Source of the DNA: Ardenticatena maritima
Lineage (GTDB): Bacteria > Chloroflexota > Anaerolineae > Ardenticatenales > Ardenticatenaceae
Reading direction: 5' to 3'
DNA length: 64,000 bases
NCBI RefSeq assembly: GCF_001306175.1
Contig: NZ_LGKN01000005.1
Location: forward strand, 1 to 64,000
A program made the translations under genes and the position numbers. The notes beneath the pieces are model-generated. The model saw only the letters and a list, made by a program, of their open reading frames with translations, was not told the DNA's origin and did no database searches. The number at the start of each line of letters is the position of its first letter. The first letter of the stretch is position 1. Below are positions 3,299-19,330 of this stretch, piece by piece.

Positions 3299-4048
3299 TT
3301 ATCGTGAAAATCGATTGGTTGCACACGACGGCATGAGATGCACAACCTCCCCCACAATCACCAGCATGGGCGTGGGCATGTCGGCGGCTTCCACCGCCTG
3401 CGCCAACGTCGCCAGCGTCGCCGCAACCACCTGCTCGTGCGGTGTGCCGCCGGCGCTGATGGCGGCGGCGGGTGTGTCGGGCGCGCGCCCGGCGCTGAGC
3501 AGCGCCGTGCAAATGGCAGCGATATTTTTGCGCGCCATCAGCACCACCAGCGTGGGAATGCGCGCCAGCGCCGACCAATCCAGCGACGAGGCGGCTTTGT
3601 CCGGCGTTTCGTGCCCCGCCACCACTGCGAACCCACTGGCGACGTCCCGATGCGTCACGGGAATGCCCGCCAACGCCGGCACCGCAATCGCCGACGAGAC
3701 GCCCGGCACCACCTCAAACGGGACGCCCGCTTCCAGCAACGCCAGCATTTCCTCGCCCCCGCGCCCGAAGACAAACGGGTCGCCGCCTTTCAGGCGCACC
3801 ACCTGTTGCCCGGCGCGCGCCCGTTCGACCAACAGCGCGTTGATGGCGTCCTGGGGCATGGTGTGCCGACTGGCGGCTTTGCCCACGAAAATGCGCTCGG
3901 CGTGCGGCGGCGCTTCGTCAAGCAATTCGGGGGCAATCAAGCGGTCGTAGAGCACGACATCGGCGCGTTGCAGGGCGCGCAGCCCCCGCAAGGTGATGAG
4001 GTCCGCCGCGCCGGGTCCCGCGCCGACGAGATAGACTTTGCCGCTCAT
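3299..4048 (-). CDS. cobA: Uroporphyrinogen-III C-methyltransferase
   Basis: 249 residues. It transfers two methyl groups from SAM to uroporphyrinogen III (C2 and C7) to give precorrin-2, the branch point to B12 and siroheme. The tetrapyrrole methylase fold shows at [15 protein letters not shown] near the N-terminus, the [18 protein letters not shown] loop near residue 90, and V-P-G-V-S-S-A. The start overlaps the stop of the upstream CobJ fusion by ATGA, which implies translational coupling. The last dozen residues are not conserved in the family. Confidence 0.96.
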
Positions 4049-5316
4049 GCTTCATCCTCCGTCGGGTGGTGTTCCGCCAGCCATGCGGCGATGGCGTCGC
4101 GCAGGCGGACGGCGGTACGCGGCGCTTGCCCGCCGCTGCTCACCGCCACCAGCACATCATCGCGGCGCAGCACCGCCGGCACGTAGAAGGTGCCCTCTTC
4201 GGGCATATCGGCGACGTTGCAGGCGATACCGCACGCGCGCGCTTCCGCAGCAACCGCCGCATTCACCTCGCGCCGGTCGGTCGCCGCAAACACCAGATCT
4301 GCACCCGCCACGTCCCCTTCACGGTAGGCGCGCGCCACCCATTCCAGACGCCCCGCCACCGCCCACTGCTGAATCGCCGTTGTCGCCGTGGGACTGATGA
4401 CGCGCACCCGCACGCCGGCGTCGAGCAATCCGCGCACTTTGCGCGTGGCGACACGCCCACCCCCCACCACCACGGCGCGCAGACCGTGCGCCGTGTTCAG
4501 CAAGAGGGGGTAGAGTGTGTTGGTGGAACGCGCCCCGCGCGCGGCGCTGGACGGTTCGGCAAGCGGCGCTGGCTCTTCGGCAAAGTAGCCGCGCGGCGTC
4601 GCCATGCAAGGACCGACAAAGCGGGTCTGGCTGTTGCCAACGATGACGATGGTGAACATGTCCACCGCGTCGGGTTGGGCGTCGGCAAGGGTGGTAAGTT
4701 GCACGGTTTCGGTGGGACGGCTCACATTGCGCACGACGGCGACGGGCGTCTGCGGGGGGCGTTCGGCGCGCAGAATGTCGAACGCACGCGCCAGTTGCCA
4801 ATCGCGCTTGCGGGAACGGGGGTTGTAGAACGCCACCACAAAATCGGCGCTGGCGGCCGCCCAAATGCGCCGCTCGATGACGTGCCACGGCGTGAGCAAA
4901 TCGCTCAGGCTGATGGCGCAAAAATCATGCGCCAGCGGTGCGCCCACCCGCGCCGCGGCGGCGAACATGGCGCTCACCCCCGGATGCACCACCACTTCGG
5001 GATGCGCGCCATCCCACGCCAGGTCGGCAAGCACTTCAAACAGCGTGCCCGCCATGCCATAGACGCCCACGTCGCCACTACTCACCAGCGCCACAACGTC
5101 GCCCGCGCGCGCGATTTTCACAGCCGTGCGCGCGCGCGCCACTTCTTCCCCCAAATTGAACCCGATGCGCCGCTGGTCAGGGCGCAAGAGGGGATCGAGC
5201 GCCTGCAAGTAGCCCTGGTAGCCCAACACCACGTCGGCCTGTTGCAGCGCGTGCAAGGCGTCGGGCGTCATGTAGGCGGGATCGCCCGGTCCCAAACTCA
5301 CGAGATGGATGCGCAT
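4045..5316 (-). CDS. cobJ: CobJ precorrin-3B C17-methyltransferase fused to precorrin-2 dehydrogenase (Met8/CysG-N)
   Basis: 423 residues in two parts. Residues 1 to about 245 are a ring-contracting C17-methyltransferase (CobJ/CbiH): [29 protein letters not shown], and F-Y-N-P-R-S-R-K-R typical of CobJ. Residues about 265-423 are a Met8/CysG N-terminal-type NAD-binding domain: [12 protein letters not shown] near 282-293, [21 protein letters not shown], which oxidises precorrin-2 to sirohydrochlorin and can chelate metal. An upstream in-frame extension is rejected: GGAGG precedes the ATG at 5316. The gene overlaps cobM-cbiG by 19 bases and cobA by 4. Confidence 0.92.
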
Positions 5317-7223
5317 ATGCCCCTCCCTTCGGATTGCGCCAACGCGACCGCCACCGTACACCGCTTGAAACGCTGTTTGGGCACCAGCAACGCGCCTTGC
5401 GCCACGGCAACCGCGGCTGGTTCGGCAACGCCGGGCAAGCCAAAGCGCGCGGCGGCGCTGGGTGAAAACGGCGCGTCCAGCGCCCGCAAGTCGTCGTGTT
5501 CGACAATGCACAAAGGCACGCGCCACCGCTCCGCCAACCGGCGGATGCCGGCTTCGTCGGCTTTGATGGCGGCGGTGGCAACCGCTTTGAGGGCGTCGGC
5601 GGCGAGCCCGTGCCGGGCGAGCACGGTTTGCACGGCGGCTTCGAGTTCTTCCGCCGGCACGCCCCGCCGACACCCCACCCCCACCACCAGCACGGGCGGG
5701 CGATAGAGCACGCCCCGCCCGCGCAAGGATTGCCACTCGGCGCGCAAACGGTGGCTGACCAGCACCACCGCGGCATAGGCGGGGTCGAGCAGGTCGGCGG
5801 GCGTTTCAACCCTCTGCACCTGTTCGGGCGGCAACGCCGCCAACGCCTGTGTGAGGAACGCGGCTTCGTCCGGCAAATCGGGTTCGACAAAGAGCCCGAT
5901 CCGCTCCCCGTTGACCAGCGCCGCGGCGGCATGGGTGAGGGCGCTCTCCGGCGCGATGCGCCAGCCACGCTCGCGCCCCAACAGGTCGAGTGCGGGCACG
6001 CCGCGCAAATCGCTCGCTGTGGTGATGACGGGGGTAGCGTGCAGATGCGCGGCGATGGTGGTCGCCAGGGTGTTCGCGCCGCCCAAGTGCCCCCCCACCA
6101 GCGGGATGACGAAACGCCCCGTATCGTCGCAGACCACCACGGCGGGGTCGTGCTGTTTGTCGCGCAGGTGCGGCGCGATGAGGCGCGTCGCCGCGCCCAC
6201 CGGCATGATGAGCACCAGGCGGCGGCTCTGCGTCCAGAGATGCGCCACAAGGTCGCGCGCGCGTTCGTCGTAGGGCTGAACGCGGGGCTCGTCGTCGGCG
6301 AAACGGCGGGGAACCCACGCGCACCCATCCAGCGCGTCCGCCAGGGTTCGCGCCAGACGGCTTCCGTCGCGGCTGAGGGCGACGATGTGCGTTGCGGCGG
6401 AGAACGAGTCGCCGCGGCGCACCGGTCGCTTGATGGGCGCGCCATGGGGGCGAAAGCGATGCCGCCAATCGGGAGCGTAGAGGTGCGAAGTGGCGGGCGG
6501 CGGTGCGTCGCCCAGAACGTCGCCCACGAGGATGAGCGCCTGGCGGGTGAAGCCGGCGGCGCGCACCTGTTCGGCGATGGTGGCTAACGTGCCGCGCACC
6601 ACTTGCTCATCTTCCCACGTGGCGCGATAGACCACCGCCACGGGCGTTTCGGGCGTGTAGCCGCCGGACGCCAGAAGGTCGTCCACCACCTGCTGGATAC
6701 GGCTCACGCTGAGGAAAATCGCCAGGGTCGCGCCGTGGGCGGCAAACGCCTGCAACGATTCGTTGCGCGGCAAACCGGTTCGGCCGGCGGCGCGGGTCAA
6801 AATGATGGATTGCGCGACGCCGGGCATGGTCAATTCCCGTTTGATGCGGGCGGCGGCGGCGAAGAGGCTGGAAACGCCGGGCACAATCTCGTAGGGCACA
6901 CCGGCGGCGTCCAGGGCGTGCATTTGCTCGGCAATCGCACCGTACACGGCGGGGTCGCCGCTGTGCAAACGCGCCACAACACCGCCGCGGCGGGCTTCTT
7001 CCACCATGGCGGCGATGATGTCGGGCAATGTCAGCCCGCTGGTGCCTTCGATGCGTGCGGTCGGCGGTGCAAACGCCAGCACGTCGGGATGCACCAGGCT
7101 GTCGGCGTAGAGCACAAGGGTGGCTTCGGCGAGCACGGCGCGCGCGCGCAGGGTCAGCAGGTCGGGCGCGCCGGGACCTGCGCCGATGAAATAGACGGTG
7201 CCGGGATGCGGCATGTGGGTCAT
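5298..7223 (-). CDS. cobM: CobM precorrin-4 C11-methyltransferase fused to CbiG cobalt-precorrin-5A hydrolase
   Basis: 641 residues. Residues 1 to about 245 are the C11-methyltransferase CobM/CbiF: F-I-G-A-G-P-G-A-P-D-L-L-T-L-R near the start, L-H-S-G-D-P-A-V-Y-G-A-I-A-E-Q, and E-I-V-P-G-V-S-S. Residues about 275-640 are CbiG, which opens the delta-lactone of cobalt-precorrin-5A and releases acetaldehyde: G-H-L-G-G-A-N-T-L-A in the core domain and G-V-G-C-R-R-G-V-P-A-E-E-L-E in the C-terminal domain. CbiG belongs to the anaerobic route. The start overlaps the CobI stop by ATGA; an ATG three codons later is an alternative. Confidence 0.94.
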   Translation of the reverse strand: MTHMPHPGTVYFIGAGPGAPDLLTLRARAVLAEATLVLYADSLVHPDVLAFAPPTARIEGTSGLTLPDIIAAMVEEARRGGVVARLHSGDPAVYGAIAEQMHALDAAGVPYEIVPGVSSLFAAAARIKRELTMPGVAQSIILTRAAGRTGLPRNESLQAFAAHGATLAIFLSVSRIQQVVDDLLASGGYTPETPVAVVYRATWEDEQVVRGTLATIAEQVRAAGFTRQALILVGDVLGDAPPPATSHLYAPDWRHRFRPHGAPIKRPVRRGDSFSAATHIVALSRDGSRLARTLADALDGCAWVPRRFADDEPRVQPYDERARDLVAHLWTQSRRLVLIMPVGAATRLIAPHLRDKQHDPAVVVCDDTGRFVIPLVGGHLGGANTLATTIAAHLHATPVITTASDLRGVPALDLLGRERGWRIAPESALTHAAAALVNGERIGLFVEPDLPDEAAFLTQALAALPPEQVQRVETPADLLDPAYAAVVLVSHRLRAEWQSLRGRGVLYRPPVLVVGVGCRRGVPAEELEAAVQTVLARHGLAADALKAVATAAIKADEAGIRRLAERWRVPLCIVEHDDLRALDAPFSPSAAARFGLPGVAEPAAVAVAQGALLVPKQRFKRCTVAVALAQSEGRGICASIS

Positions 7224-11066: not shown

Positions 11067-11993
11067 TCAATGCTGATGCCCGTGGTCGTGGTCGTGGTGG
11101 TGGTGATGATGGTGGTGATGGTGATGCCCGTCCAGCCCCCGCAAGCCGTGATGGTGGTCGCTGGTTTGGGGCAAGCCATGCTCATGCTCGAAGCCGGGCA
11201 TGCGATGGCGATATTTGCACAGGTCGCAATTCATCGCGGCGCGCCCTTCCATGGCTTCTTGCAGGCGCTGTTGCACCAGCGCGAGAATGCGCTCATCAGC
11301 GCCGAGCGGTTCCGCCATCAAAAATTCGTGTTCGGGATGCGCACGTGCGGCGTCCGCCACCATGCGGGCGATGTTTTTCAGGATGATGCCCGTGAAGAAG
11401 AAGTGCGGCGTCACGATGATGCGGCGTGCGCCCAGCCGCACACAGCGTTCCAGCCCGGCAGGCACGGTCGGCGCGGTGAGGCTGTAAAAAGCGGTCTCCA
11501 CCCAGCCGTAGCCGCGCCCTTCCCAGAGCAGGCGCGCCAGTTTGAAGACGTTGGAGTTGGAATCGGGGTCGCGGCTGCCGCGCCCCACAAGCAAGACCGC
11601 CGTCTCGTCCAGCGGGATGGGGCGTGTGGACGCGGCAAGGGCGGCTTGGGTGCGGTCGTCCAGCGTTTCGACAATGAACGGATGCACGCCGAGCGGTGTG
11701 GCGTAGTCAATGCGCACGTGCGGCCATTCGCGGCGCGCCCAGTTGAGGATGGTGGGCACGTCGTTCTTTTGATGCCCCGCCGGACCAAGAAAGAGCGGCA
11801 ACGCGATGATGTGGGTAGCGCCGTTTGCGACGGCTTCGCGCAAGCCAACGATGATGGGCGGGTCGGCGAGTTCCAGATAGCAGGGCACGGTCGGCCAATC
11901 CAGGTAGCGCGACAAGGCGCGTGCAAAGGCTTCAAATTGGGCGACGCCTTCGGCGTCACGCGTTCCGTGGGCAATCAACAAGACGGTTGGCAT
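11067..11993 (-). CDS. cbiX: Sirohydrochlorin cobaltochelatase CbiX, long form with metal-binding tail
   Basis: 308 residues. It inserts Co2+ into sirohydrochlorin. Two homologous CbiX/SirB-type domains are present: the first begins L-L-I-A-H-G-T-R-D with the catalytic His; the second begins [16 protein letters not shown] with Arg in that place. After residue 250 comes [11 protein letters not shown], matching the MXCXXC motif that binds an Fe-S cluster in long CbiX proteins of the Bacillus megaterium type, followed by a tail of about 35 residues dominated by His with an uninterrupted run of about 11. The tail probably buffers or delivers metal (inference). It overlaps the upstream gene by 19 bases; GAAGGAG precedes the ATG. 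Confidence 0.94.
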
Positions 11994-13732
11994 GTCGGCT
12001 CCTTCTCTCCTGGTTTGATGGGATGTTCGGGATGCGTCGTCTGGTGCAAGACCTGCAACGCCCGTTCGACATGGTGGGCTTCAACGTGTGGCGCGCCGTC
12101 GAGCACCGCCTGGTCGCCCGCGGCGCGCACCACGCCCCCCAGTTCGCGCAGGCGCAGGGTCAGGCGTCCGGGCGGCGCACGGCGGGCGGCTTCGGCGATG
12201 AGCGCGTCAACTGCGGCGCGGGTGAAGTGGGGGATACGCCCGTCGCGCGCCACTTCCTGCGCCACGAAGCGCGCCAGCGCGGCGCGGTTTTCGGGCGTGT
12301 CGGGCATGCTCGTCGCCATGTGGACTTCGTAGCCGTAGCCCTGCATGCGCGAACGCAAAGCAGGATGCAGGCGCTGCAAGTCGTCGGTGTTGCCCGCCAG
12401 CACCAGCACCACGTCGCAGGGCACGGGGTCGGTGCGCACCATGCTCCCACTCGATGCGGGGGAGCGCCCGGTAATCGCCAGTCGCCGCGACTGGATGGCG
12501 CTGAGCAGGTGTTGCTGGGTTTCACGCGAAAGCGTGCCCACTTCGTCAATGAAGAGCACGCCCCCATGCGCCTGATGGAGCGCGCCCGCTTCCACCAGAT
12601 GGTGGGGTGGTGTTTCGCGCCCCCCGGACTGGAAGGGGTCGTGCCGCACGTCGCCCAGCAGGGCGCCGGCGTGCAAGCCGGTGGCGTCCACAAAGGGCGC
12701 ACGGCGGGGGTGCTGGCGTACCAGCAGGCGGGGCGTATGCGCTTGCTGGGTCGGCGATGCCGTGGTGCGCCAGAAAAGCCACACCACGCCCGCCAGCAGC
12801 AGCACCCACTGCCACGCCCCCGTGAAACGGGCGGCAAACGCCGCGACGCCCAGCCCCACCACCGCCAGCGCCAGCAGAAAGCGGCGCACCAGCAGCCGAC
12901 GACGCACGGCGGCTTCGGCGGCGGCGATGAGACGCGCGCCGCGCCCGGCGGGAACGGTGCGGATGCGCGGGCTGATGGGTTGCTCCGGGTTGGGGAGCAC
13001 TAGCACGTCATGCAAGGTGTGGGGGGTCAGCAGTTCCGCCATGGCTTCGCCCAGCATGCTTTTGCCCGTGCCCGGTTCCCCCACCAGCAGAACAAAACGG
13101 CGCTGGCGAGCCGCCACCTGAATGACATGCACGGCGTGCGGCTGACCAATCACCTGCGCCAGGCGCAAGGGCGGCACGGGAATGTCGGCGGTGGTCTCCC
13201 ACTCGGCGGTGTCGCAGGCGGTGCAGACGCGCAAGGCGGCGTGGCTGTCGTAGCGGGCGAGCGCCAACAACGCCTCTTTCCGCGCTTGCTGGGGGGCATG
13301 CGGGGCGCGCAGTGCCGTGGCGAGCAGGCGCTCGGCAACGGCGAGCGCGGACGGCGTGGGCGCGTCGAGCAGGGCGACCACGGCATGCAGAACGGTTTGC
13401 CACTGCCGCGGGGTTGGCGCGGCGGGCAGGGGCGTTTCCACGCCGCGCCGCCACCAAGCCGCCAGGGTGCGGGCGCTTTCTTCACGCACAAAACGCTCGC
13501 GGTCGTCCGCCAGGCGCCACAGCACCGCCCGCTCATCAGTCGAAGGGGTGGGCGTGTGCGCCAGCCGCCGCGCGGCAACCCATCGCACCGTCCAATGGGG
13601 CGCGTTCGCCAGAACCGCCACGGGGTCGGGTGCGAAAAGGCGTTCCAGCCAGGGCAACGCCGCCCCCAAGGCGGCGGGGGGCGCATGGCGAAGAAGCGGC
13701 AGCAGCACCGACCAGCGCCACATGTCAAACAT
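11975..13732 (-). CDS. Membrane-anchored LonB-like AAA+ ATPase without protease domain, HEAT-like N-terminus
   Basis: 585 residues from the ATG at 13732 (an ATG three codons later is possible). Residues 1 to about 175 are helical with alternating Trp/Arg/Ala, resembling HEAT/ARM repeats. An AAA+ core follows: Walker A G-E-P-G-T-G-K-S at 218-225, Walker B G-V-L-F-I-D-E at 391-397, sensor N in L-A-G-N-T-D at 446-450, and arginines at H-P-A-L-R-S-R. Two hydrophobic segments (about 284-300 and 306-321) lie between Walker A and B, exactly where archaeal LonB carries its membrane anchor, and [14 protein letters not shown] also matches LonB. The S16 protease domain with its Ser-Lys dyad is absent: the protein ends after the ATPase lid. 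It overlaps both neighbours in the B12 operon. Function unknown. Confidence 0.8.
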
Positions 13733-14799: not shown

Positions 14800-14988
14800 T
14801 TAGTGGCATGGGACGACGTAGAGCGCATGGCGCAGTTCGTGGAAGGCGTCATGCAGGGGTGGGTAGTTGGTGAAAAGCACCGCCCACAGCACGACGCCGA
14901 CGACAATCAGCACCAGCGCCATTTGGACGAAGGCGTGTTCCCAAAGGTGGCTCTGTTCGTGCTGGGTGTGGGTTTCGTGCGTGTACAT
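14800..14988 (-). CDS. cbtB: CbtB-like cobalt transporter subunit
   Basis: 62 residues. A His-rich N-terminus (M-Y-T-H-E-T-H-T-Q-H-E-Q-S-H) leads into one membrane helix (about 22-42), then P-P-L-H-D-A-F-H-E-L-R-H-A-L-Y-V-V-P-C-H. The H-D-x-x-H-x-x-R-H and final P-C-H match the CbtB family of B12-regulated cobalt uptake proteins (about 60 residues, one helix). CbtB normally pairs with the five-helix CbtA, which is not next to it here; the following 352-residue membrane protein may take that place (inference). It lies 13 bases after the ATPase/VWA gene. Confidence 0.82.
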   Translation of the reverse strand: MYTHETHTQHEQSHLWEHAFVQMALVLIVVGVVLWAVLFTNYPPLHDAFHELRHALYVVPCH

Positions 14989-15001: not shown

Positions 15002-16903
15002 TCATTTCAGGGTTTGCTGAACCACGCGCACAACCTGCTCCGCCGAAACGTCTTCCAGCGGGATGTGGACGCCGCGCAAGGCGGCGGCGAGTTCGGCGGC
15101 GCGCCCATGGCGCACAACGCCTTGCTCGGTGTCGAGCACGATGGCGGTGATGGGCTGGGCGGCGAGGTGGGCGGCGGCGTCCAGCGTGGCGTGCCAGGGG
15201 TCGCGCCCGTCCAGCGGCACGTTGGCTTTGCCGTCGGTAATGAGCACCAGCACGATGGGGCGTTCGGGTGTGGTGCGGTGGGCGCGCGCAATCATCTCGC
15301 CGGCGAGCGTGAGAGCGTGCGCCAACGGGGTGCGCCCGCCGGTGGGCAATGTGCGCAAGGCGCGTTCCGCCAGTTCGACGCTGTGGGTGGGGGGCAAAAG
15401 CACCTGCGCCTGTGGTCCACGAAAGGCGATAAGCGCCACGTCGTCACGCTGGCGGTAGGCGTCGCCCAAGAGCGTGAGCACGGCGCCTTTGGCGGCTTCC
15501 ATGCGCCGACGGGCAGCCATGGAGCCTGAGGCGTCCACCACGAAGAGAATGAGCGTGCCCGTGCGCCCTTCGCGCACTTTGCGGTGCAGGTCGTCGCGCT
15601 GGATGGTGATGTGGGCGTCGCCGCGCCCCAGGGCGGTGCGCAGGGTGGCGTCGAAGGCGATGTCGGTAGCGTGGGGGTCGCGCACGGCGCGCACGTAGCG
15701 CCCGCGGGGGCTTTGGGTGGCGGCGGCGCGGCGGCCGTGGGGGCGGGGGGGAGAAGCCGCCCCCACAACCTGGATGTGAGGTGTTGCCGTCGGCGACGGT
15801 GCGAAGGTTTCTTCTTCGACGCCGTCCGCCGGGGGGGAATCGCCGTCGGGCGACGGCTCAGGCGCGTCGCCCTCGGCGTTGGGGGGCGTGTCGGTCAGGT
15901 CGCGCATGAGGTCGTCCAGCCGCTGGCGGTCGAGATGGGGCTGTTCAAAGGGTTGCCGGCGGCGGCGGTGGGGCAAGACGAGTTCGGCGGCGGTGCGCAC
16001 GTCGTCGGGGGTGACGTGGGTGCGCCCGTCAAACGCCGCGAGCGTGCAGGCGGTTTTGCAGAGAGTGATGTCGGCGCGCACGCCTTCGACTTCAAACTCC
16101 ACGCAGAGCCGCGCGATGAAGGCGAGCATGTCATCGTCAAGGTGGACGTGCGGCAAGCGTTCGCGCGCGGCAAGAATGCGCGCGCGCAAGGCGTCTTCTT
16201 CGGCGCGCCAGGCGGCGGCAAAGGCGTGTGGGTCGCGTTCAAACGCCATGCGCCGCCGCACCACCTCGGCGCGTTCGGCGGGGTCGGTCGGCGCGACCAC
16301 GTCCACCATCAACCCGAAGCGGTCGAGCAATTGGGGGCGCAGGTCGCCTTCTTCGGGGTTCATCGTGCCGATGAGCACGAAACGCGCGGGGTGGGTGATG
16401 GCAAAGCCTTCGCGCTGCACCGTGTTGACGCCCATCGCGGCGGCGTCGAGCAAGAGGTCAACCAGGTGGTCGGCGAGCAGGTTGACCTCGTCAATGTAGA
16501 GCACGCCGCGGTGCGCGGCGGCGAGCATGCCCGGCTGGAAGGCATGTTCACGCTCGCGCAAAACGCGCTGGATGTCGAGCGTACCCACCACGCGGTCTTC
16601 GGTCGCGCCCAACGGCAGGGTGATGAAAGGGGCAGGGCGCGTTTCGACCTGGCGGTCGGGTTGGCGGCAGGTGGGGCATGCGTCGCAAGGGGCGTCGGGG
16701 TCGCAGTTGAAGGCGCACCCCACAACCGTGCGGATGGGCGGCAGAAGCGCCGCGAGGGCGCGCGCGGCGGTGCTCTTCGCCGACCCCTTGTGCCCACGGA
16801 TGAGCACGCCACCGATGGCGGGGTTGACGGCGTTGAGCAGGAGCGCGGTTTTCAGTTGGTCTTGCCCGACGATGGCGGTAAACGGGTAACGTGGTTGGTT
16901 CAT
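15002..16903 (-). CDS. ChlI/ChlD-type AAA+ and VWA chelatase subunit (putative cobaltochelatase component)
   Basis: 633 residues combining both small subunits of Mg-chelatase-type enzymes. Residues 1 to about 330 are ChlI-like: F-T-A-I-V-G-Q-D-Q at the start, Walker A R-G-H-K-G-S-A-K-S-T near 36-45, a four-Cys insert (C-D-P-D-A-P-C-D-A-C-P-T-C), Walker B L-Y-I-D-E-V-N-L-L, and an arginine-finger region. A Pro/Glu/Asp-rich linker (about 345-430) leads to a VWA domain with the MIDAS motif F-V-V-D-A-S-G-S-M-A near 470. Such proteins power metal insertion with a large CobN/ChlH subunit, absent from this window. It is the first gene after the B12 riboswitch, so cobalt is the likely metal, although CbiX in the same operon is a simpler cobaltochelatase. 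Confidence 0.88.
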   Translation of the reverse strand: MNQPRYPFTAIVGQDQLKTALLLNAVNPAIGGVLIRGHKGSAKSTAARALAALLPPIRTVVGCAFNCDPDAPCDACPTCRQPDRQVETRPAPFITLPLGATEDRVVGTLDIQRVLREREHAFQPGMLAAAHRGVLYIDEVNLLADHLVDLLLDAAAMGVNTVQREGFAITHPARFVLIGTMNPEEGDLRPQLLDRFGLMVDVVAPTDPAERAEVVRRRMAFERDPHAFAAAWRAEEDALRARILAARERLPHVHLDDDMLAFIARLCVEFEVEGVRADITLCKTACTLAAFDGRTHVTPDDVRTAAELVLPHRRRRQPFEQPHLDRQRLDDLMRDLTDTPPNAEGDAPEPSPDGDSPPADGVEEETFAPSPTATPHIQVVGAASPPRPHGRRAAATQSPRGRYVRAVRDPHATDIAFDATLRTALGRGDAHITIQRDDLHRKVREGRTGTLILFVVDASGSMAARRRMEAAKGAVLTLLGDAYRQRDDVALIAFRGPQAQVLLPPTHSVELAERALRTLPTGGRTPLAHALTLAGEMIARAHRTTPERPIVLVLITDGKANVPLDGRDPWHATLDAAAHLAAQPITAIVLDTEQGVVRHGRAAELAAALRGVHIPLEDVSAEQVVRVVQQTLK

Positions 16904-17049: not shown

Positions 17050-17215
17050 CGCGAAGGTGGTACACGAGCCACAGTGCAGGCGGAGTATCGGGCTTCACGC
17101 TCGCGGGCGTGTTACCGTTGCGGGACAGCGCCGGACTTTCACCGGTCTTCCTCCATTGTGCGCCGCGCATCCGGGCGACTGGCGCACCTGCACCGAGCCA
17201 TATGCAATTGTCAAC
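17050..17215 (-). promoter_or_regulatory. Cobalamin (B12) riboswitch
   Basis: Read on the minus strand, the region contains the conserved cobalamin aptamer core: GGTGAAAGTCCGGCGCTG and TCCCGCAACGGTAAC (17111-17143 region), preceded by GGAGGAAGACC, and the B12-box-like AGCCCGATACTCCGCCTG (about 17078-17096). The order and spacing fit the family. The outer limits are approximate. It controls the whole 16-kb minus-strand operon and is followed by two terminator hairpins. Confidence 0.93.
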
Positions 17216-17260: not shown

Positions 17261-17598
17261 GCGGCGGGACACGAACAGCGCGCAAAACGACGCTGAGCGA
17301 GACGGGTTCGCAACCTAACGGGTGTTTGGTCAGCGTGTTCGGGTTGATTTTGCAAACAAAGGAAGTTTGCGTATGTTTGATGCGTAGATTTGCGCATACT
17401 TTGTATCACAAAATAATTCGCAACCCGACGGGGGTTTTTGCCACGCGAGTGGGTTGCGAAATGCTTTGTGTGTCAAAGGAATTTTGCGAATAAAACAAGG
17501 TGTTTTGCGCGTGTGGCGAGCCACTGAGAGGCGCGCTGCGCGGCGATTTGACACATGCAAGGCTTTTGGGTATCGTTGCGCCAGATTGAGCGCACGCT
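17261..17598. other. CRISPR leader-like region without genes
   Basis: About 340 bases with no convincing gene, richer in A and T than its surroundings and directly before the first CRISPR repeat. It holds an imperfect 21-bp direct repeat (17307-17327 and 17417-17437, both beginning TTCGCAACC), a perfect 10-bp inverted repeat TTCGCAACCC/GGGTTGCGAA (17417-17426 and 17451-17460), and a TGCGC/GCGCA inverted repeat close to the array. Repeat polarity and the decayed distal repeat both place the leader here. Leader function is inferred. Confidence 0.6.
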
Positions 17599-19316
17599 CT
17601 TTCAGCCGTATTCGATCCGCAGGGGATACTGAAAGTCCTCAAGCGCCAAAGCATCCAGAAGGCCGGCAAGATCTTTCAGCCGTATTCGATCCGCAGGGGA
17701 TACTGAAAGCTCGCGTGGGTGTCGTGAAAAGCGCGCCCGCCGTGCTGCTTTCAGCCGTATTCGATCCGCAGGGGATACTGAAAGCCCTTCTGCCCGGGAG
17801 TTGGAAGAAATAGAGACATGCTTTCAGCCGTATTCGATCCGCAGGGGATACTGAAAGGGCGGATTTCTTCGATGACACCTACCAGCTCTACCCCTTTCAG
17901 CCGTATTCGATCCGCAGGGGATACTGAAAGTCTTTTTTTTCGTGTTCGTACCGGCGGCGGCGCTGGCCTTTCAGCCGTATTCGATCCGCAGGGGATACTG
18001 AAAGTTCTGTGGTCAATTGTATATCGTCAATGCCGCAACCTTTCAGCCGTATTCGATCCGCAGGGGATACTGAAAGTCGATATTCCAACGTGGATAAAGA
18101 CGTTGGCGGATGCCTTTCAGCCGTATTCGATCCGCAGGGGATACTGAAAGTGCCTCGACGCAAGGTCTCGGCTGCGGCACGGCTTGCTTTCAGCCGTATT
18201 CGATCCGCAGGGGATACTGAAAGTCAGCAATGAACTGATGGTAGACAGCACGCCCGCTGCTTTCAGCCGTATTCGATCCGCAGGGGATACTGAAAGGCAT
18301 GGTCGCCGTGGCGGTAGGTGGGTTGTTGATTGCTTTCAGCCGTATTCGATCCGCAGGGGATACTGAAAGTACATGCGGCGCTTCAATGCCGACGGCGACG
18401 ATGCTCTTTCAGCCGTATTCGATCCGCAGGGGATACTGAAAGCTTTTCGCTCATGCTTCACCTCCCTGGTCGTTTGTTCTTTCAGCCGTATTCGATCCGC
18501 AGGGGATACTGAAAGTCGCCGTACCCGGCGACCCCCAGGCGACTATCACCATCTTTCAGCCGTATTCGATCCGCAGGGGATACTGAAAGCTCTCGTATCT
18601 CGTTCCGCTCCTCTATCGTCCGACCTTTCAGCCGTATTCGATCCGCAGGGGATACTGAAAGTCCTGGATACGTGCCCTTGCAGATGCCATTCCGCCCTTT
18701 CAGCCGTATTCGATCCGCAGGGGATACTGAAAGACGTGGTGGTTGTGGCGCTTGAACGTCCGGCTTACGGACTTTCAGCCGTATTCGATCCGCAGGGGAT
18801 ACTGAAAGCTAGCAAAAGCACCCGCCAAACGACGTGCCACAGCCTTTCAGCCGTATTCGATCCGCAGGGGATACTGAAAGCCGATAAGTCCACCGATAAA
18901 ATAGAGTTTCCGCCGCTTTCAGCCGTATTCGATCCGCAGGGGATACTGAAAGGTTCTCGTGTAAGACGTTTCAGGCGACTGTACGGTCCTTTCAGCCGTA
19001 TTCGATCCGCAGGGGATACTGAAAGGACGTGTGCGGGGTCCGGCGGGGGGAGTTCGAGCGTCTTTCAGCCGTATTCGATCCGCAGGGGATACTGAAAGGT
19101 ACATCATGGCGCTCGTTGTGAAGCGAGGGCGCGGCCTTTCAGCCGTATTCGATCCGCAGGGGATACTGAAAGAAAGGTTTTCATTCAGGAGCGCCGGGAC
19201 TGGTCGCCTTTCAGCCGTATTCGATCCGCAGGGGATACTGAAAGCTGTCGGCTGCACGGAGAGAGGCTGGCGTAATATCCTTTCAGCCGTATTCGATCCG
19301 CAGGGGATACACCGTT
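17599..19316 (+). CRISPR. CRISPR array, 24 repeats of 37 nt and 23 spacers
   Basis: The repeat starts CTTTCAGCCGTATTCG and ends GGGGATACTGAAAG; its ends are a 7-bp inverted pair (CTTTCAG/CTGAAAG). Repeats begin at 17599, 17673, 17748, 17821, 17894, 17968, 18040, 18114, 18187, 18260, 18333, 18406, 18479, 18553, 18625, 18697, 18772, 18844, 18916, 18989, 19062, 19136, 19208 and 19280. The first 23 read as identical; the last matches for 31 bases, then its final 6 differ. Spacers are 35-38 nt and all appear distinct. The 3' end ACTGAAAG resembles the 8-nt crRNA handle ATTGAAA(C/G) of type I/III systems, which with the decayed last repeat supports plus-strand transcription from a leader on the left. 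No cas genes are in the window, so the type cannot be assigned. Confidence 0.99.
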
Positions 19317-19330
19317 TCCCCACCCTCACA

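Follow-up and report, generated by a model that had tools for sequence, protein, structure and literature searches.

A protease-free LonB-type ATPase with a HEAT-like N-terminus, encoded with a CbtB-like peptide and an Ig-like membrane protein in the cobalamin operon of Ardenticatena maritima

Lon is known as a protease, and the occurrence of a LonB-type ATPase without a protease domain in the cobalamin operon of the Chloroflexota bacterium Ardenticatena maritima raises the question of what such a protein does there. The gene is located in the 64,000-nucleotide stretch (positions 1 to 64,000 of contig NZ_LGKN01000005.1) that was analysed here and is referred to as the window; its product is called HEAT-LonB, and the features of the locus are collected in Table 1. 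A conserved motor-only lineage docked to a metal module would show that the Lon ring has been reused as a remodeller.

Table 1 Features of the HEAT-LonB locus, and CbtB-AB pairs in cyanobacterial plasmids. Positions refer to the window unless another stretch is named.
Feature	Position	Strand	Basis
Cobalamin riboswitch, operon head	17062..17206	(-)	RF00174, 59.3 bits, E 8.2e-12
ChlID-type putative cobaltochelatase subunit, first operon gene	15002..16903	(-)	TIGR02442, 805 bits
CbtB-like single-TM peptide, 62 aa, ending HDAFHELRHALYVVPCH	14800..14988	(-)	PF09489; alignments
AB protein, 352 aa, two Ig-like β-sandwich domains and membrane helices	13725..14783	(-)	Predicted structure
HEAT-LonB ATPase gene, 585 aa	11975..13732	(-)	Without protease domain
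N-terminal HEAT-like helical repeat domain, residues 1-176	13205..13732	(-)	HEAT_2; predicted fold; structural matches
LonB-type AAA+ module and lid, residues 177-562	12047..13204	(-)	TIGR00764; 4zpx
Walker A GEPGTGKS, residues 218-225	13058..13081	(-)	Alignment of 7 sequences
Membrane insert, hydrophobic, residues 285-323	12764..12880	(-)	Hydropathy; predicted helices
Conserved insert, residues 349-371, candidate pore loop	12620..12688	(-)	Alignment of 7 homologues
Walker B VLFIDE, residues 392-397	12542..12559	(-)	Invariant in 7/7 homologues
Sensor 1 AGN, residues 446-448	12389..12397	(-)	Invariant in 7/7 homologues; role by analogy
Arginine-finger candidate LRSR, residues 459-462	12347..12358	(-)	Invariant in 7/7 homologues; role by analogy
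CbiX cobaltochelatase, next gene downstream of the ATPase	11067..11993	(-)	PF01903, E 1.8e-57
Cyanobacterial CbtB and AB-like pairs	L083 6563-8095, L084 6658-8089, L085 6694-8077, L086 6287-8068		

The LonB profile TIGR00764 matches the ATPase with 455.8 bits (E 2.5e-136) and covers model positions 3-390 of 608 only, and the Thermococcus onnurineus LonB (TonLonB) structures 4zpx and 3k1j align to residues 177-560 (E 1.7e-125 for 4zpx). Annotated full LonB genes of Natrinema plasmids are ~50% identical to it over residues 177-519. An earlier note, made from the sequence of the locus, had likened to archaeal LonB both a membrane insertion between Walker A and Walker B and a 14-residue segment, and each is located here: a single strong hydrophobic stretch at residues 285-303 (score 2.19) lies between Lys224 and Asp396 of the two Walker motifs, within the part that aligns with 4zpx and 3k1j, and the LonB signature segment corresponds to residues 427-440. 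The hydrophobic segment is present in the homologues as well, and two helices are predicted at residues 262-323 in a model whose AAA+ part has pLDDT values mostly below 50 (from an alignment of just two sequences). In the seven-sequence alignment Walker A, the insert at 349-371, Walker B, sensor 1 AGN, LRSR and the lid motif show essentially no variation; the 23-residue insert, near-invariant among the seven homologues and common to TonLonB, may serve as a pore loop.

The statement that the chain stops after the ATPase lid without a Ser-Lys dyad is borne out, as the TIGR00764 match ends at position 390 of 608 and the search named beforehand, i.e., for the Lon_C (S16) domain with Pfam and NCBIfam profiles, gives no match in the ATPase protein, in which these profile sets do recognise the LonB-type ATPase and the lid. 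A frameshifted or split protease gene is ruled out, with no protease domain in the six frames of the 64-kb window and none detected by tblastn in the 1.2-1.5 kb after each homologue. In the A. maritima genome Lon_C occurs at five places, all outside the first 64 kb of the ATPase contig, in two Lon-type open reading frames, one bacterial LonB-like frame and two shorter ones with lengths that fit RadA and ComM. By sequence, HEAT-LonB belongs to the LonB ATPase lineage but is no LonB protease, since the defining S16 domain was searched for and is absent. The curated equivalog cut-off of TIGR00764 (516.6 bits) is likewise not reached by the window ATPase; this cut-off alone is misleading, however, because two protease-less homologues (L039 88-2061 and L041 4578-5822) exceed it with 532 and 529 bits. 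Automatic annotation would probably name these two proteins 'ATP-dependent protease LonB', which is an annotation trap.

The same protease-less ATPase is found in seven Chloroflexota genomes, and since all copies end just past the lid, loss of the protease is not decay. The homologue of an Ardenticatena sp. MAG (G400, contig L038) is 75% identical to the window copy, that of G403, from the same family as A. maritima, 59%, and those of four genomes of another class (G157, G229, G266 and G329) 54-55% over the ATPase part. The TIGR00764 match ends at model positions 390-403 of 608 in the scored members, with four homologues at 397-403. Differences between the window gene and L038 are distributed over codon positions 1/2/3 as 47/35/179, which argues for purifying selection on the ATPase. 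A pseudogene is ruled out by this selection together with the reading frames, motifs and truncation point kept across the seven genomes. The distribution is patchy (three of six sampled genomes of the own family and 4 of 41 of the other class), and a scan of genome contigs with P0001 gave an Ardenticatena relative as the sole match. The earlier proposal of a LonB-derived, protease-free unfoldase or remodelling ATPase is thus supported by the searches for an S16 domain and for a downstream protease, and by six further genomes, with remodelling as its putative part.

The N-terminal residues, which had been thought to look like helical repeats, are predicted as paired helices over residues 1-176, most of residues 20-150 at pLDDT 75-93. 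In structure they are most similar to AlkD2 (Z 12.1, 184 residues), PP2A-A, TOG domains and alphaRep; since Z scores near 12 for helical repeats are little above those obtained from unrelated helical models, these matches support a HEAT-like arrangement and no more. The profile HEAT_2 scores 20.5 bits (E 6e-4) in the window ATPase, under the Pfam cut-off of 27.7, and 38.4 bits (E 1.5e-9), above that cut-off, in a stand-alone homologue (G157, L041). The helical-repeat assignment is therefore upheld by predicted fold, structural matches and the stand-alone homologue, and the HEAT profile check holds for that homologue and stays below threshold for the window copy. In G157 the HEAT domain has its own gene (243 aa), which shares a few bases with the start of the ATPase gene; the domain is thus a detachable partner that is fused to the ATPase in most members.

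The constant neighbours of the ATPase are a CbtB-like peptide and one or two AB-type Ig-like proteins, which adjoin it in six of the seven carriers, i.e., wherever the upstream side is readable (the G266 carrier starts at a contig edge and its upstream side cannot be read). In the window the AB gene runs 8 nt into the ATPase gene, and the AB protein is predicted to have membrane helices after each of its two β-sandwich domains; a fold search returned generic Ig-like sandwiches only (arrestin/Vps26, RbmA; best Z 8.5). In G157, G229 and G329 (stretches L040, L041 and L042) the sandwich domains are encoded as two genes, A and B, next to a CbtB-like peptide. In G229 a transposase-like open reading frame (L042 5071-6375), of integrase type as judged by eye, immediately precedes the A gene and suggests that the module is mobile. 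The 62-aa peptide of the window matches PF09489 (CbtB) with 29.2 bits (cut-off 27), and the CbtB-like peptides of the carriers have the motif HxxxHxxRH...CH, in which H, H, RH and CH are invariant. The B proteins have H, ED and DGxxH residues in common, and the conserved residues of both CbtB and B resemble metal ligands and may act as such.

A B profile was detected in 4 of 400 sampled genomes of the phylum, all of them ATPase carriers (hypergeometric 5e-9); the sample holds five carriers, the fifth being G266 with its contig edge. CbtB is present in 23 of the 400, among them four of the five carriers (p 4e-5), and CbtA adjoins CbtB in each of six tested CbtB loci without the ATPase. From this distribution of neighbours, CbtB pairs in these Chloroflexota either with CbtA or with AB and HEAT-LonB, and the latter two are candidate partners of this peptide, for which a role in cobalt transport is predicted. 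CbtAB proteins have been predicted as cobalt transporters in many B12 producers without known cobalt transporters (PMC2667541), and knock-down of cbtB in Methylococcus gave better growth at 1 uM cobalt and so eased the toxicity of the metal, with cbtA guides also positive, a phenotype consistent with cobalt import by CbtAB (PMC13108547).

In A. maritima the module is embedded in a riboswitch-led operon with the order riboswitch, ChlID, CbtB, AB, HEAT-LonB, CbiX, CbiC, CbiD, CbiET and CbiL, in which intergenic gaps from ChlID to CbiL do not exceed 16 nt and the CbiX gene overlaps the ATPase stop by 19 nt. Beyond CbiL follow CbiG, methylases, a CobT-type phosphoribosyltransferase and CbiA; two fusions, TP_methylase with CbiG and TP_methylase with NAD_binding_7, are located at 4045-7223 in the same operon. 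The copy of the module in G400 has the same cobalamin riboswitch, and that in G403 is flanked by corrin methylase genes and accompanied by a cobalamin adenosyltransferase-like gene (by eye). No cobalamin riboswitch is found at the gathering threshold in L040, L041 and L042, or in the short family-member contig L051 (stretches of 7-20 kb). Between the window riboswitch and uvrC there is a CRISPR array (17582-19327) of 24 repeats (CTTTCAGCCGTATTCGATCCGCAGGGGATACTGAAAG) spaced by 72-75 nt, the last of which is degenerate.

Family searches of the A. maritima genome for the cobalt importers CbtA (PF09490), CbiM and NicO gave no match to any of the three, and the module is a possible source of cobalt for its B12 pathway. 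The large subunit CobN is encoded at C5:617899-621348 (L079), at a distance of ~600 kb from ChlID, its presumed partner. Given this CobN and the CbiX gene of the operon, cobalt insertion may proceed by an early as well as a late route in this genome. The idea that CobN is missing, and that the ATPase is hence a chelatase subunit, is ruled out by this CobN gene.

Outside the Ardenticatena family the metal may differ, because CbiC is absent from G157, G229, G329 and G266 (G329 77% and G266 84% complete) and these four carriers probably do not synthesize the corrin ring; a role in B12 alone is ruled out as the general function. The informative neighbours of the module are copper or other metal genes, namely CopA with a CopZ-like gene (G329) and FUR-like, DUF305 and CobW genes (G229). 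Each of the four cyanobacterial plasmid regions read has CbtB with an AB homologue immediately after it (~30% identity over the full length), and three of the four lie in heavy-metal islands that encode P-type ATPases and ArsR/SmtB regulators. Neither HEAT-LonB nor CbtA stands beside CbtB-AB in these plasmid regions, which implies that the ATPase is dispensable for whatever CbtB-AB does; it is an addition to CbtB-AB, so far seen in Chloroflexota only. The module is thus one for a metal of uncertain identity; the Ardenticatena family has recruited it for cobalamin synthesis, and in Ardenticatena cobalt is the likely metal.

The operon context, with CbtB, the Ig-like AB protein and the cobalamin riboswitch, points to metal acquisition, and we give about even chances to the reading that HEAT-LonB is a non-proteolytic, membrane-anchored, LonB-derived AAA+ ATPase that acts as the energy-using partner of a CbtB-AB metal-acquisition complex. 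The protein retains the LonB-type module with its ATP site, membrane hairpin, candidate pore loop and lid and has lost the S16 protease; its ring would be placed on the cytoplasmic face of the membrane. The N-terminal HEAT-repeat domain would be an added docking arm for AB, CbtB or another partner. CbtB would contribute a one-helix peptide with its His/Cys metal-ligand-like tail, and AB would display its two Ig-like domains across the membrane, on the far side. By hydrolysing ATP, the ring may then exert a pull on CbtB or AB or remodel either of them, which would free the bound metal or hand it on inward; alternatively, the pulling may result in assembly of the CbtB-AB complex. For Ardenticatena this would mean a supply of cobalt to CbiX that is controlled by the B12 riboswitch. 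ATPase activity, direct contact of the components, the identity of the metal and the transport direction are all predictions from sequence. Bolder, and rather unlikely, is the proposal that metal uptake through CbtB-AB, with its Ig-like outer domains, is powered by a membrane-anchored ring of the Lon clade without a protease, in place of an ABC or ECF ATPase; such an ATP-driven importer would form a new class.

The main rival, a tentative possibility that is indistinguishable by sequence, assigns to the ATPase a MoxR-like role as an assembly or quality-control chaperone, which would act in the maturation or extraction of a membrane metalloprotein, be it AB/CbtB or an unlisted client, without itself energising metal uptake. 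An intact AAA+ module, a membrane anchor and the absence of the protease fit this role, as do the cyanobacterial CbtB-AB pairs without the ATPase alongside, and HEAT domains are common adaptor surfaces; the strict co-occurrence with B, however, indicates a dedicated rather than a general client, and no other conserved client gene was found. Compared with acquisition, a component of efflux or metal resistance, whose placement in the cobalamin operon would give protection while cobalt is drawn in, is improbable. The P-type ATPases and ArsR/SmtB regulators of the cyanobacterial islands, like the CopA/CopZ neighbours in G329, argue for it, but a B12 riboswitch normally turns genes off when B12 is plentiful, and such control is in better agreement with acquisition. 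The CbtAB knock-down phenotype, too, suggests import (PMC13108547).

It is quite improbable that the ATPase takes part in intracellular corrin metalation, where it would be an additional AAA+ subunit that helps ChlID/CobN or CbiX to insert cobalt. Its gene shares an operon with ChlID, which is close, and CbiX, which adjoins it, CobN is encoded elsewhere in the genome, and the protein has weak matches to ChlI-type AAA+ profiles; on the other hand, it has a membrane anchor, it is constantly accompanied by CbtB and AB and not by chelatases, and the four distant carriers without CbiC would have no corrin ring to metalate. That the ATPase is one half of a two-subunit protease which recruits its protease domain in trans is very improbable, for although a LonB module normally feeds a protease, each S16-like domain in the genome sits within a larger gene elsewhere and no lone protease is found near any homologue.

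HEAT-LonB and its module share features with several known systems and differ from each of them. Archaeal LonB (TIGR00764; 3k1j/4zpx) has the same AAA+ module (residues 177-560 here), insert between Walker A and B, lid and 427-440 signature, whereas the window protein is bacterial, lacks S16, has an extra HEAT-like N-terminus and is encoded in a metal operon. AAA+ proteins of the MoxR, ChlI and CbbQ types serve metal or cofactor systems without proteolysis; unlike these, HEAT-LonB is a LonB by sequence, carries a membrane anchor and lacks its own VWA partner. With CbtAB (PF09490/PF09489) the module shares a His/Cys-tailed single-TM CbtB-like peptide in a cobalamin operon led by a B12 riboswitch, but in Ardenticatena, in whose genome CbtA is absent, the Ig-like AB protein and the ATPase replace it, and the CbtB tail is of the LRHxLYxxPCH type as opposed to the RHxxGFPCH tail of the CbtAB type. 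The cyanobacterial plasmid pairs (pOSC7112.01, pCHRO.01 and others, annotated as hypothetical proteins) have CbtB directly before a homologous AB, yet differ from the Ardenticatena module in that no HEAT-LonB ATPase adjoins them. A search of the open-access literature yielded no account of a LonB that lacks the protease and either has HEAT repeats or lies beside CbtB. Another Lon derivative minus one of its two activities is LonC (MtaLonC), which has lost ATPase activity and kept the protease and is in this respect the mirror image of HEAT-LonB (PMC3391209, PMC9569914).
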